DNA of 23,844 bases, from positions 1-23,844 of IMG/VR virus record IMGVR_UViG_3300009545_000639. One strand, written 5' to 3'. Source of the DNA: a virus. Positions 2,842 through 23,844 of the stretch are shown here, piece after piece. Every line of letters starts with the position of its first letter. The stretch's first letter is position 1. The translations under genes were made by a program, and so were the position numbers. The notes under the pieces are model-generated. The model had not been told where the DNA came from. It worked only from the letters and a program-made list of their open reading frames with translations, and did no database searches.

Positions 2842-3534
2842 ATGTTACAAAAAACACTTAAAACCACAACAGGTAAGCTGTTAGTTCAAATCCCGTCGTC
2901 CCTTGCTGAAGTTACGCTGGGGCAGATGATTGAACTTCAGGACGAACCCGACCTAAGCGACCTAAAAGCCATCAGTATCCTTTCAGGCATACCGGTTGGA
3001 CAATTACAAAATGTAAAAAATGTTGCCGATTTTACCGTATTCGGCGAAGTGGTGCTAACATTATCGCACCAGATAAAACACCTGTACAACAGCGACGACA
3101 TCCCCAAAAAGGTCACTTTCGCGTCAGGAAAAACGGTGAATGTTTTCCATAACTTATCAGTCGAGCCCGTTGGCGCATTTATGGCCGCCCGCGATATTAT
3201 CAGCGAAGAAATTGCTGAACATATTAAATTATACGGCAATGAAGACTGGCAGCAAAACTTCAACCCATCGCTAAAAGCCTGTTGCCAGGTACTTGCTCAT
3301 TATTTTTATTGCAGGGCAACCGGCAAGCCTTATAACGAATACGAAGCCGACGAATTTGTTACTGAAATAAAAAAACTAAGGGTAACGGAGGCGCTGCCCA
3401 TCTCGAAGCATTTTTTTACCTGTTATCCCAGCTTATCGAAAGCGAAAATAAGCTTCTGGCGTCGCCCGTTACAGCGTTGGAACGACGTGCGGGAATACAT
3501 CAATTTGAGAAATTTAAATATGTCAACACTGTAA
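2842..3534 (+). CDS. Tail assembly chaperone-like protein, zero-frame product
   Basis: A 230 aa protein with no clear enzymatic motif. It begins with a short beta segment (LLVQIPSSLAEVTLGQMIEL), followed by helices and a segment SLKACCQVLAHYFYCRATGKPYNEYEADEFVTEIKKL..ALPISKHFF. That layout resembles gpG/gp15-type tail assembly chaperones, which hold the tape measure protein during tail assembly. The strongest argument is the -1 frame overlap. Residue 192 falls on a TTTTTTT heptamer, after which a second frame stays open to 3674. The zero-frame tail after that point (about 38 residues, rich in W and R) reads like out-of-frame sequence. It lies 23 bp after terL and far from the tape measure gene (10099), which is unusual for a chaperone. 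Chaperone function is inference. Confidence 0.6.
   Translation: MLQKTLKTTTGKLLVQIPSSLAEVTLGQMIELQDEPDLSDLKAISILSGIPVGQLQNVKNVADFTVFGEVVLTLSHQIKHLYNSDDIPKKVTFASGKTVNVFHNLSVEPVGAFMAARDIISEEIAEHIKLYGNEDWQQNFNPSLKACCQVLAHYFYCRATGKPYNEYEADEFVTEIKKLRVTEALPISKHFFTCYPSLSKAKISFWRRPLQRWNDVREYINLRNLNMSTL
3411..3454 (+). promoter_or_regulatory. Candidate -1 ribosomal frameshift signal
   Basis: The heptamer T_TTT_TTT (3411-3417) is phased as X_XXY_YYZ in the zero frame of the 2842 gene. Twelve bases later comes a perfect 7 bp stem, AGCTTAT (3430-3436) with ATAAGCT (3448-3454) and an 11-base loop. A second heptamer, A_AAA_AAA at 3369-3375, is phased the same way. The -1 frame is open only from 3366 to 3674, so both heptamers fall in the permitted window. 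The alternative is a homopolymer indel or sequencing error. Confidence 0.55.
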
Positions 3535-3674
3535 ATTCCCTGGCCGGCGGCGATATCACCAAATGGGATACCGTGCTTAACTTGCCTTATGAGCGCGTGC
3601 TCACCAAGCTGCTGCTCAACAAAACCGAAGCAGATTATCAAAAACGTTATTCAGAACTATTGTCGTCACAATAA
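3417..3674 (+). CDS. Frameshift extension of tail assembly chaperone (gpT-like)
   Basis: This is the -1 frame segment that would be joined to the first 192 residues of the 2842 gene, giving a fusion of 277 aa with 85 residues from this frame. Its sequence looks like real protein: SQLIESENKLLASPVTALERR, then EKFKYVNTVNSL and DITKWDTVLNLPYERVLTKLL, ending KRYSELLSSQ. The only ATG in the frame (3477) would discard the first part, and there is no sign of separate initiation, so translation by frameshifting is favoured. In lambda, gpG and gpGT arise in the same way and both are needed for tail assembly. That parallel is established for lambda and inferred here. Confidence 0.55.
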   Translation, partial: YLLSQLIESENKLLASPVTALERRAGIHQFEKFKYVNTVNSLAGGDITKWDTVLNLPYERVLTKLLLNKTEADYQKRYSELLSSQ

Positions 3675-4735: not shown

Positions 4736-6856
4736 ATGACACTCATAGCCAAAATTGATTATTCGCACACCTATACCACCGGCACCCAGGTTAACGGCCA
4801 GGTATACGTAGCCCTGTTTGATGCCGATACCGGCGAACCCGCAAACGGTAATTATGCCACTGTAAGCTATACCCAAAATATAAATGGTACCATAACCAAC
4901 TCCAGGGTTATTATACCAGGTCAAAGCATGGCAATCTTTACCGGGCTAATACGGGATACTAATCCCTTTAACTTGTTTTTCTCCAGCTTTACGATTACCG
5001 GTATCGACGCTCCTTCCGATACGCCCCCACCCGTAAATACCTGCGATTTGTCGATAATATATATATCCGTCGACAAGCAGGAATCAGCACCGGGTGCAAT
5101 CGATGCACAAATCGCCGTCAATGCCACATCAAGCTATGGACCTATACAATATAGCCTGGACGACATCTCTTTTCAAACCTCTCCAACATTCGCCGGCTTA
5201 GCCGGCGGCGTGAAAACAGTTTACGCCAGAGATGCTAACGGCTGCACCACCGAACTTAACGTAACGGTGCCTGTTCAAACCAGTATCTTGGTAAACACCC
5301 CGGCTGTAACACTGCCCGGCGGGAATGTATCCTGCTGGAACGCAGCCTTTAACCCCATAGTTTTCACCTATCAGCGTAAAGACTTCGAAGTGATTGATGC
5401 AATAGCAGACACGGCAACAGGCAACGCTATTATATCGGTAAACTGCGATACGACAATTATTAAAAGCGTGCTCGATGCTAACAAAACGGCAGCAGACAAT
5501 GCCAAACAACTGAACGTGGTATTAACCAACTATAACCCGGTGTATGTTTATATCGATACTAACACCTATAAAGGCACTTACGAGGTTATCGGCGTACCGC
5601 AAACCGGCAGGCTGCTTGTAAAAACATCTTTCATAGCAACAGCAACCGGGTTTATGAATATTAACCTGCTGCGGCCCTATTACCAGGTTCGCACCCAAAT
5701 AACATATATCGATGCTATAACCGGGCAGCAATCTGTCATTACATCTACCAACCGGCCCGACAACACGGGCCTTGTAAAAGCCGACCTATCTAATTTTTTA
5801 CAGAGCCTGCTGCGTGCAAAAGATGGCAGTAATTATGCCGCTGTAAACTATCGCGATGCCGACCTTAGCGCCAGTTATCAAATCTCGTACGCCGAATACT
5901 GGGATGGTAAGCTAACCGGAACCCAGTCGTTAACCTACAGCCAAATCCCCGAAACGTTTTATGTGCTTTATGCGGCCAAACAATTGGGCGAACGTTATGG
6001 CGGCAACCTGGCAGCGTATGTACCTTTCAGCTCGGTGTTGGACGATAGCCAAAGGGCTAAATGGATTACCGACTTTAGCGAGCCTGCTTATTCAAACAAC
6101 TATCCGTTCGACATTGGCTTTATTTACGGTGAAGGCCTGCTCGGCCGTCAATTATATTGCGAGCTTACACCGCTCGACGTGAACCGTAATCCGTTACCCG
6201 GTGGCGCGCAAAATAGTTATTTGCTAAATGAAGATGGCAGCTGGCTGTTGAACCAGGACAGCAGTAAACTCATTATTGCCGGCCAAAATGCCGCAAGCTT
6301 TGATGTGCCCGCGCAGTTAGGTTTAAACCGTCTCCGCATCAATACCTCCTTTACCCCGGAAGTATATTTCTTCACCATTGCTCTTAAATATGATGACGAT
6401 GAAAATACACATACTGTTACCCAAACTCAAACAATACGTGTTGATGATGCCGTAGATGACCAATCGGTTTACCTGCGCTGGATTGGACTGAGCGGAAGCT
6501 GGAACTATTATCGTTTCGTTTACAACCAGGAGGTTTCGCTGGATGTGCAGAATGCCGTCATTATTAAAAATTACGTGTCCGACTGGGAGCAACAGGACGG
6601 CATTGAACAAGTAATAAGTAAAAGCGCCGGGCAAAAAATGAAAGTGATGGCTGAAGACTTACCAGTGGCCGATATTAAGGGTCTGCAATCCATAAAATAT
6701 TCGCCAAAAGTGCAAATGCTTATAAACAAAAACCCTGTAAAGTGGCAAACTATAGTAATTAACACCGCTACCTATAGCGAATACGAAACCCGTAACGGCC
6801 AGGCGCCATTCAGCATAACTTTTAACCTGCCATCAATAAATATACAGGCGCAGTAG
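4736..6856 (+). CDS. Large tail-tip protein with SprB-like repeat
   Basis: A 706 aa, mostly beta-rich protein, most likely a distal tail or baseplate-hub protein. The N-terminus (about 1-90) reads as a beta domain. Residues about 105-180 form one SprB-type repeat: PIQYSLDDISF, then SPTFAGLAGGVKTVYARDANGCT. This module is common in Bacteroidota adhesins and surface proteins. The C-terminal quarter holds SVYLRWIGLSGSWNYYRF (from about residue 578) and VAEDLP..DIKGL-like strands, a pattern I recall from structural proteins of Bacteroidota phages. No signal peptide, so it is virion-borne rather than secreted. The next gene (7014) encodes a similarly large tip protein. A Dit/hub-like assignment is inference; a structural tail role is likely. 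Confidence 0.6.
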   Translation: MTLIAKIDYSHTYTTGTQVNGQVYVALFDADTGEPANGNYATVSYTQNINGTITNSRVIIPGQSMAIFTGLIRDTNPFNLFFSSFTITGIDAPSDTPPPVNTCDLSIIYISVDKQESAPGAIDAQIAVNATSSYGPIQYSLDDISFQTSPTFAGLAGGVKTVYARDANGCTTELNVTVPVQTSILVNTPAVTLPGGNVSCWNAAFNPIVFTYQRKDFEVIDAIADTATGNAIISVNCDTTIIKSVLDANKTAADNAKQLNVVLTNYNPVYVYIDTNTYKGTYEVIGVPQTGRLLVKTSFIATATGFMNINLLRPYYQVRTQITYIDAITGQQSVITSTNRPDNTGLVKADLSNFLQSLLRAKDGSNYAAVNYRDADLSASYQISYAEYWDGKLTGTQSLTYSQIPETFYVLYAAKQLGERYGGNLAAYVPFSSVLDDSQRAKWITDFSEPAYSNNYPFDIGFIYGEGLLGRQLYCELTPLDVNRNPLPGGAQNSYLLNEDGSWLLNQDSSKLIIAGQNAASFDVPAQLGLNRLRINTSFTPEVYFFTIALKYDDDENTHTVTQTQTIRVDDAVDDQSVYLRWIGLSGSWNYYRFVYNQEVSLDVQNAVIIKNYVSDWEQQDGIEQVISKSAGQKMKVMAEDLPVADIKGLQSIKYSPKVQMLINKNPVKWQTIVINTATYSEYETRNGQAPFSITFNLPSINIQAQ

Positions 6857-10098: not shown

Positions 10099-12102
10099 AT
10101 GGAAAGCGACATTAACAAAAAAATAACTATCGATGTTGAAGTAAATACCGATGGCCAGCAACAGATCGCGCAGTACAAGGCGGCTTTTGATAATCTGCGT
10201 ACTTCTATAAATAATTTATCAAACCCTTTAGGCGGTTTATCCAATAATATTTCATCACTGGATAAGAACCTTTCAAAGGTTAATGATTCGCTCAATAAGC
10301 TAAGTAAACAAAATAAAGAAACTGAGTCATCAGGGCAAAAAGTAAAAGAGAGTATCAAAGGCGTAGGCGAAGCATCTGATACTGCCGATAAGATTATTAA
10401 ATTGTTAAAAGCAAGTTTTACCAGTTTAGAGGGGGCTCTTACTGGTGGGATATCGATAATTATTGCGTACCTGCCAGAACTAACAAACTGGATCTCTTCA
10501 TTGATTAAGGGCAAGGAAGCTATAGATGCAGCCAAACTAAGCGCCGATACAATGAATCAGGCCATTGATAATTCCGATTATTCTAATGCTATTGAACAAA
10601 TAAATAATCTAAAAATAAATGTCGGGCTGGCGAAACAGGGCCTGATTAATAAAGAAGAAGTATTACAGCAATATAATGATACCCTGGGTAAAACAATGGG
10701 GCAGGCAGGTAGCCTGGGGCAGGTTGAGTCATTATTAACTAAAAATGGGCCAGCTTACATTAAAATGACGCTGTTAAAAGCCGCCGCACAAACAGCCTTG
10801 CAAAATGCTGCAAAAAAAGCTGTTGAAGCAGAAGAAGACAAAAGAAAATCTGACGAAGATTCACTCACTTTTTGGGATAAAGCAAAGGGCTATATTAAAA
10901 CTGGCGTGGCAGCTGTTGCCAACCCGGTTTTGGGTTTAGAGGAATATAATAGTGTACAGGTTGAAAATATTGCAACCGCAAAAAAACGGCGAAAAGAAGC
11001 AGTTGATGATGCAGATAAACAAAAAGATGAATACCTGAAAATTGCTGAAACTTTTACCAAACAAGCGGCAGACATAGCTAAAAAATCAGGCTTCGATTTT
11101 TTTAATGGAGAAATAGTTCCCAAAGGTACAGCAGCCACAAAAAAGAAGCCGAAAATTGAACGCCAGGAGCCGGTGGAGTTAAGTGCGCCGGTTGCCAAAA
11201 TACCCAATGCTAAAATAACGGAGAATTTAAACGCAGTAAAAAATCTACAGCTAACAAATGAGCAGGATACCGCAAACAAAACCGTTGATATCAAAAAAGC
11301 GGCTTTGGATAAAATTGAAGACTACGCCAAACAGAACGCACAGAAAATTGCAACGGATACGATAAAATCACTAGCCGATAGTGTGAAGCAGCAAGAAGCC
11401 GCAAAACTTGCGTCGCTCGATAAGGATAAATCAGCCGAGCTGGCAAACAAAAGCCTTACCTCGGCACAGCGCCTGGCTATCGAAAACAAATATCAAAAAC
11501 AAGAAGCTGCCGTAAAAGCAAAAGCATTTAAGCAGGAACAAGAGCTTTCGATCGCCCAGGCAATAATTAACGGCGCCCAGGCAGTAACTAAAGTAACTGC
11601 ACAGGCCGGTGTTCTCGCCCCATTTGAAATTGGAATTGTCGTTGCCGAAACAGCAGCGCAGGTAGGTAAAATTGCGGCTCAAAAACCACCTGCCATGGCG
11701 AAGGGCGGGTATTTTAAATCGGACGGCAAAGGCGCTTTATTGCCTGGCTACAGCCGCACAGATAATACAAATGCTTACCTGCGTTCCGGCGAAGCTGTTG
11801 TAGTATCAGAAGCGATGCAAGTACCATGGGCACGCAATCTCGTGAGCGCCATTAATGTCGGCTTCGGAGGACGGGATTTTTCAATGTCTAATCCTGGTCG
11901 TGGCTACGCTGTCGGCGGCATATTTACTGACGGCGGTGATGCTAACCGATATTACAGCCAACCCGTTAACGACCAGAAAAACCTGGCCAATACAATAGCT
12001 TATCAAATGATTAATAACTTTCCGCCGGTTTATGTGGACGTAAAAGACGTAAACAACCAGCAAAACATTCTGGCACAGACCATTAACAGGGTGAACCTGT
12101 AG
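10099..12102 (+). CDS. Tape measure protein
   Basis: A 667 aa protein that spans the tail tube lumen and sets tail length; a short-to-medium tail is expected. Typical features are long Lys/Glu/Ala-rich helical stretches (about 20-110 and 230-520) with coiled-coil character and many Gln/Asn. A hydrophobic helical segment GGISIIIAYLPELTNWISSLI lies at about 116-137. A Gly-rich C-terminal region (AKGGYFKSDGKGALLPGYSRTDNTNAYLRSGEAVVVSEAM) resembles the end of many Bacteroidota tape measure proteins. The start ATG follows an A-rich leader. Tail-tip genes precede rather than follow it, which is the reverse of the common order. No peptidoglycan hydrolase domain is visible. Confidence 0.85.
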   Translation: MESDINKKITIDVEVNTDGQQQIAQYKAAFDNLRTSINNLSNPLGGLSNNISSLDKNLSKVNDSLNKLSKQNKETESSGQKVKESIKGVGEASDTADKIIKLLKASFTSLEGALTGGISIIIAYLPELTNWISSLIKGKEAIDAAKLSADTMNQAIDNSDYSNAIEQINNLKINVGLAKQGLINKEEVLQQYNDTLGKTMGQAGSLGQVESLLTKNGPAYIKMTLLKAAAQTALQNAAKKAVEAEEDKRKSDEDSLTFWDKAKGYIKTGVAAVANPVLGLEEYNSVQVENIATAKKRRKEAVDDADKQKDEYLKIAETFTKQAADIAKKSGFDFFNGEIVPKGTAATKKKPKIERQEPVELSAPVAKIPNAKITENLNAVKNLQLTNEQDTANKTVDIKKAALDKIEDYAKQNAQKIATDTIKSLADSVKQQEAAKLASLDKDKSAELANKSLTSAQRLAIENKYQKQEAAVKAKAFKQEQELSIAQAIINGAQAVTKVTAQAGVLAPFEIGIVVAETAAQVGKIAAQKPPAMAKGGYFKSDGKGALLPGYSRTDNTNAYLRSGEAVVVSEAMQVPWARNLVSAINVGFGGRDFSMSNPGRGYAVGGIFTDGGDANRYYSQPVNDQKNLANTIAYQMINNFPPVYVDVKDVNNQQNILAQTINRVNL

Positions 12103-23535: not shown

Positions 23536-23844
23536 ATGACCACACTCGAAAACCACCAAATAAAAGGCATAACTGTAAAAAATATAATCGTCACGCTAAT
23601 TAGTACGGTTAGTATTGTAGTTTCAGTTATGACAGCTTATTATGGATTAAAATCTGACATCCAAAAAATCAGTGCAGATCGGATTTCAGAAACCCGTTTA
23701 GCAAACCTCCGGCTTACATTGCTTGAAAACGAGGTTGCCTTGCTACAAAAAGAAGTAAATGCGATAAAGTTTTCCGAAAACAGCAAACCGCTCACTGTCA
23801 ATACAACTAAAGGGAACCAACATCTACTGACTACGGTTAAATGA
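23536..23844 (+). CDS. Small membrane/coiled-coil protein, lysis-module candidate
   Basis: A 102 aa protein with one transmembrane segment at about 14-36 (VKNIIVTLISTVSIVVSVMTAYY). A helical, coiled-coil stretch follows (about 45-80; SETRLANLRLTLLENEVALLQKEVNAI) and a polar tail. This layout suits a holin-like or spanin-like lysis protein, or a small membrane anchor found just before phage lysozyme genes. It follows the acyltransferase divergently, with 91 bp from the ATG start of that gene, and ends at the last base of the window, so the next gene cannot be seen. Function is inference from topology only. Confidence 0.5.
   Translation: MTTLENHQIKGITVKNIIVTLISTVSIVVSVMTAYYGLKSDIQKISADRISETRLANLRLTLLENEVALLQKEVNAIKFSENSKPLTVNTTKGNQHLLTTVK

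Follow-up and report, generated by a model that had tools for sequence, protein, structure and literature searches.

The closest described counterpart of the gene analyzed here is the tail assembly chaperone pair gpG/gpGT of bacteriophage lambda (Xu, Hendrix, Duda 2004, as given in PMC5009743). In that phage, G is the partner of the tape measure protein, and the T domain, encoded in the -1 frame, binds the tube protein (PMC5009743). For the chromosomal setting of the gene, the closest systems are gene transfer agents, viriforms such as RcGTA and BaGTA. Their definition is taken here from PMC9662315, and the parts of it that can be tested on sequence are proteins derived from tailed phages, full endogenisation, and mostly vertical inheritance with co-divergence. 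By the same definition, the particles package host DNA at random, have no capacity for their own complete genome, and bring DNA into other cells.

The analyzed DNA is the IMG/VR virus record IMGVR_UViG_3300009545_000639, positions 1-23,844, and this whole stretch is called the window below. Its closest relatives are Mucilaginibacter genomes. Profile searches with Pfam and PHROG recognized genes for the terminase, portal, head protease, and tape measure; all features given below are on the plus strand. The large terminase gene terL (positions 1595-2818; Pfam Terminase_3 and Terminase_3C, PHROG terL) is directly followed by two overlapping frames: a zero frame of 230 aa at 2842-3534, and a -1 frame without stops from 3366 to 3674. 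As described in an earlier note on this DNA, the overlap holds two correctly phased heptamers: A_AAA_AAA at 3369-3375 (A7) and T_TTT_TTT at 3411-3417 (T7), both in X_XXY_YYZ phase. A slip at T7 leads to an 85 aa extension (3417-3674) and to a 277 aa fusion ending at 3674, with the residues ...SKHFFYLLSQLIE... in the join region.

The preferred reading, to which we assign a probability of about three in four, is that one start in the gene at 2842-3674 would give two proteins. Most reading would stop at 3534 (230 aa), and a fraction of the ribosomes would slip back one base on UUUUUUU and stop at 3674 (277 aa), the slip rate setting the ratio of the two products. On the model of lambda gpG/gpGT, the N-terminal part common to both products would bind the tape measure protein, and the -1 part would bring in subunits of the tail tube. 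The gene is part of a phage-derived, vertically inherited cluster. We infer that the ribosome slips, and not RNA polymerase, and the same holds for the product ratio and for the chaperone role.

A scan with one genome per species yielded 12 relatives, and a family-level search gave matches in 90 of 401 genomes, mostly with the two halves at one locus. T_TTT_TTT is in phase and at the same spot in all 75 distinct loci, a set that was deduplicated and chosen for both halves in the -1 register. The run consists of seven T in 51 of these loci, eight in 7, and nine in 17. TTC never occurs in either Phe codon of the slip site in the 75 loci, against 533 TTT to 193 TTC in the gene's own usage. Outside this set, L080 has its two halves in another register and an early stop in the zero frame, and the second half is lost in a few loci. 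An in-phase T-run was also present in 134 of 136 further IMG/VR locus records, a set that contains duplicates of about 80 contigs. Both records that disagree come from a single contig, which has an upstream break. Close relatives retain the two-frame layout. By this comparison, the split frame is real and conserved. It is very likely that a -1 shift at the T-run, as had been proposed for this gene, produces the 277 aa fusion.

It is highly improbable that the layout reflects a former single-frame gene broken by an indel in the T-run, through decay or a sequencing error. A single-frame relative does exist (L271, see below) and decay is seen in some copies of the cluster, but the same frame change is found in the 75 distinct loci and in 62 distant ones, which rules out sequencing error, and the -1 part is under purifying selection.

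The position at which coding switches frame was located from pN/pS values, pooled over all pairs and uncorrected for relatedness. Before the T-run, pN/pS was 0.45 in the zero frame vs. 1.62 in the -1 frame; in codons 20-40 after the slip, it was 0.16 in the -1 frame vs. 1.95 in the zero frame. Because the constraint lies in the zero frame before the T-run and in the -1 frame after it, the switch is placed at T7 and not at A7. The low value after the slip supports the earlier view of the -1 frame as real protein. The tail of the zero frame had been taken for noise, and this is ruled out by the dual constraint in its first 20 codons, where the pooled pN/pS was 0.57 in the zero frame, 0.47 in the -1 frame, and 1.67 in the +1 frame. 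Past the slip, the zero frame is open for 38 codons on average, compared with 12.5 expected when -1 codons are drawn by usage. Since its first 20 codons are constrained in both frames and it stays open for so long, the tail of the 230 aa product, which is rich in W, K, and R, may matter. Between close species, dN/dS of both gene parts is mostly below 0.15 (mostly 0.03-0.15 for the -1 extension), pointing to protein-level selection on each of them.

Two further elements had been proposed as parts of the signal. A7 at 3369 was found in only 14 of the 75 loci and no -1 coding signal precedes T7; a slip at A7 was dropped, and this heptamer is probably unused. The perfect 7 bp stem 12 bases after T7 (AGCTTAT at 3430-3436 with ATAAGCT at 3448-3454) is present in the window, but its role in the signal did not hold: all 7 pairs are intact in only 7 of the 75 loci, and RNAalifold finds no consensus RNA structure after the slip (energy zero). 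The stem was dropped as a stimulator, and the lack of a conserved downstream structure counts against the preferred reading. An unusually conserved stretch of DNA, GGTAACGGAGGCGCTGCCCAT, was found upstream at 3381-3401 and includes GGAGG at 3387-3391. GGAGG precedes the slip in 58 of 58 loci with T7 or T8 vs. 1 of 17 with T9. Synonymous change is strongly reduced at the GTA and GAG codons of this stretch, with almost none at the GAG within GGAGG. GGAGG could be a stimulator required by the shorter T-runs, and the stretch as a whole is a possible stimulator or recombination site. The presence or absence of GGAGG largely tracks the tree, so the split may be a single event. The spacing from GGAGG to the T-run is 19 bases, which is long for such an upstream ribosomal stimulator, usually located at 10-14 bases.

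The same two products would result from transcriptional slippage, in which RNA polymerase inserts an extra U at the T-run and the altered mRNA is then translated without a change of frame. We regard this as improbable. It would fit the pure homopolymer, the runs of T8 or T9 in 24 of the 75 loci, and the failure to find here the conserved RNA structure that is often present at strong ribosomal sites. However, 51 of the 75 loci stop at T7, which is short for polymerase slippage, and the GGAGG found upstream of every T7 and T8 run suits a ribosomal stimulator, despite its long spacing. Against the ribosomal slip, which we continue to prefer, it has to be counted that U_UUU_UUU is a weaker slip site than A_AAA_AAG in E. 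coli (PMC5009743).

For structural comparison, the two parts of the fusion were folded apart. The AlphaFold model of the N-terminal part (residues 1-192, up to the slip site) is confident, with pLDDT 89.6, and the model of the -1 domain is poor. The N-terminal model matches only uncharacterised phage proteins, including one of 175 aa from Nonlabens phage P12024S (BFVD entry I6R9M9, E 2e-4), presumably gp38, going by length and phage. In the genome of this phage (NC_018271), gp38 comes after terL, and gp39 extends it in the -1 frame, with an in-phase T9 at the transition. The two are annotated as separate hypothetical genes; gp38 and gp39 (L133:23136-23830) are probably one frameshifted gene, which annotation has split in two in this one annotated phage looked up. 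In the P12024S branch, an in-phase T7 was found at the corresponding place in 62 of 62 IMG/VR loci examined. The -1 extension has at least 60 residues in 58 of them and is shorter in 4, apparently where the stretch ends. P12024S shares with the window the site behind terL, the in-phase T-run, and the -1 extension; it differs in being an isolated marine phage, not a chromosomal cluster, and in having about 16% identity. If the frameshift is as proposed, Bacteroidota phages have a frameshift of the chaperone type that uses a bare U-run and is conserved between very distant branches.

Single-frame relatives were also found. In the remote relative L271, the join lies within a single uninterrupted frame (ALPLVNFFLEQFE, compared with ALPISKHFFYLLSQLIE). 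The -1 domain matches single-frame proteins encoded after terL, one in Elizabethkingia phage TCUEAP1 (96.5% probability) and, weakly, one in a gut phage (62%). A protein search of viral contigs with the zero-frame protein alone gave no match, nor did a tape-measure DNA search in phages. Among the loci collected, L005 (PP511318.1, Dulem virus 31) is 35.8 kb long, carries terminase and portal genes, and is filed as Microviridae; it looks misclassified.

Compared with lambda gpG/gpGT, the gene has the same general organization: a short and a -1 extended product from one start, a slippery heptamer late in the first frame, and a location in one structural gene module. As is characteristic of G/GT-type genes, the -1 frame overlaps the first one and the overlap holds a slippery heptamer in phase; the two-frame layout is conserved across strongly diverged phages. 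In a G/GT-type pair, the short product is also made in excess over the long one, both are missing from the virion, and they bind the tape measure and tube proteins. The differences are the U_UUU_UUU slip site, the location directly behind terL, and the relation to known chaperones, which was undetected here in sequence or fold. G/GT-type genes are expected immediately upstream of the tape measure gene; here the latter is at 10099-12102 (PHROG 1506 tail length tape measure, E 6e-10), and four forward genes lie between 3674 and 10099. The distance is about 6.4 kb (7 kb in the earlier note). No relation to known tail chaperones was found by Pfam or PHROG, and the N-terminal model had no fold match in PDB. 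Both the distance and the missing family or fold match count against the preferred reading. Chaperone families diverge fast, and a missing match is weak evidence.

For these reasons, the proposal of a tail chaperone is favored by the two-frame architecture and disfavored by position and by the search for a known family or fold. We infer a chaperone role by analogy. The gene would work like G/GT and is not filed as a proven member, because the tests of position and homology fail. An unlikely competitor is that the frameshift is real and the gene encodes a different assembly factor, for the head or the tail, that is linked to the terminase. The gene comes after terL alike in Mucilaginibacter, Nonlabens, Elizabethkingia, and gut phages, which would suit such a factor, as would the remote tape measure gene and the lack of a fold match. 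On the other hand, the hallmark of G/GT is a small protein without enzymatic function that has a -1 extension and is encoded in the structural module, and a non-exhaustive look at the open frames of the window revealed no other two-frame candidate pair. The tail chaperone is retained as the preferred reading.

The gene was found in 110 of 150 Mucilaginibacter species genomes, normally at one locus each. An intact cluster is present, for example, in Mucilaginibacter sp. OK268. In many species, the cluster is flanked by the same host genes; of four host families upstream, at least one lies no more than about 8 kb away in 65 of 72 loci. The protein distances measured for terL and for the frameshift gene correlate with those of neighboring host genes (Mantel r 0.43-0.82, 0 of 2000 permutations), the host markers in this test being neighbors of the cluster and not genome-wide genes. 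The GC content of the cluster is close to that of its flanks. A functional temperate prophage carries integrase, repressor, and replication genes; none of these was found among the window proteins scanned, and the window may be incomplete. Taken together with the low dN/dS, the cluster looks domesticated, and these comparisons indicate that it is inherited vertically in Mucilaginibacter, unlike a plain prophage. The whole record is probably a piece of this chromosomal cluster, called a virus by IMG/VR.

Much of the cluster has been lost repeatedly, with one deletion end close to the slip site. Seven genomes (L007, L013, L053, L058, L081, L131, and L335) lack about 20 kb at one identical junction, in which the base matching 3404 is joined to the base matching 23614. 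The left end, site A, is located between 3404 and 3405, 6 bases before the T-run; the right end, site B (23613/23614), is inside the last gene (23536-23844). The -1 half was searched for in these seven genomes and was not found. In trees of terL and the frameshift gene, as well as of the genes right of the junction, broken copies are placed beside different intact sisters. Therefore, at least five independent deletion events with one junction have to be assumed, which rules out a single inherited deletion. Deletion by homology was also rejected, as any sequence common to sites A and B is at most 8 bases long in six intact sisters. A site-specific enzyme is the likely cause, judging from the junctions.

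One more locus, L336 (genome G434; L336:2865-2885), is cut at site A and joined elsewhere, inside an acyltransferase gene. A tyrosine-recombinase-like gene, judged by eye, is located at 5117-6424 of this locus, about 2.2 kb downstream of the cut. Other internal deletions of the cluster were observed in L105/L117 (G342, from clpP codon 102), L087/L129 (G394, from capsid codon 95), L061 (G106, gene 149 to portal), and L103 (G288, after the chaperone-like gene).

The frameshift gene also draws attention to a phage-like cluster that most species of a soil genus carry at a fixed place. Tentatively, and at slightly less than even odds, the gene could have its chaperone role in a so far unreported gene transfer agent of Bacteroidota (or in some other domesticated particle), selected in most Mucilaginibacter species and repeatedly lost by site-specific deletion ending just before the frameshift site. 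No gene transfer agent of Bacteroidota was found in the literature searched, which is not proof that none has been published. Should the cluster make particles that carry DNA, the phylum would have its first described gene transfer agent, as far as this literature shows, and this reading is directly testable in cultured strains.

With respect to the definition in PMC9662315, terL, portal, protease, and tape measure are derived from tailed phages, as judged from the genes. Endogenisation is seen in the same locus with common flanking host genes, and mostly vertical inheritance with co-divergence is seen in the distribution among species and the Mantel correlations. On these sequence-testable parts, the cluster is a candidate gene transfer agent of Bacteroidota. 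It differs from RcGTA and BaGTA in belonging to another phylum and in being a candidate recognized by its genes. It resembles them in that no integrase was seen in the window and in being a tailed-phage structural cluster, fixed at one chromosomal place and co-diverging with host genes.
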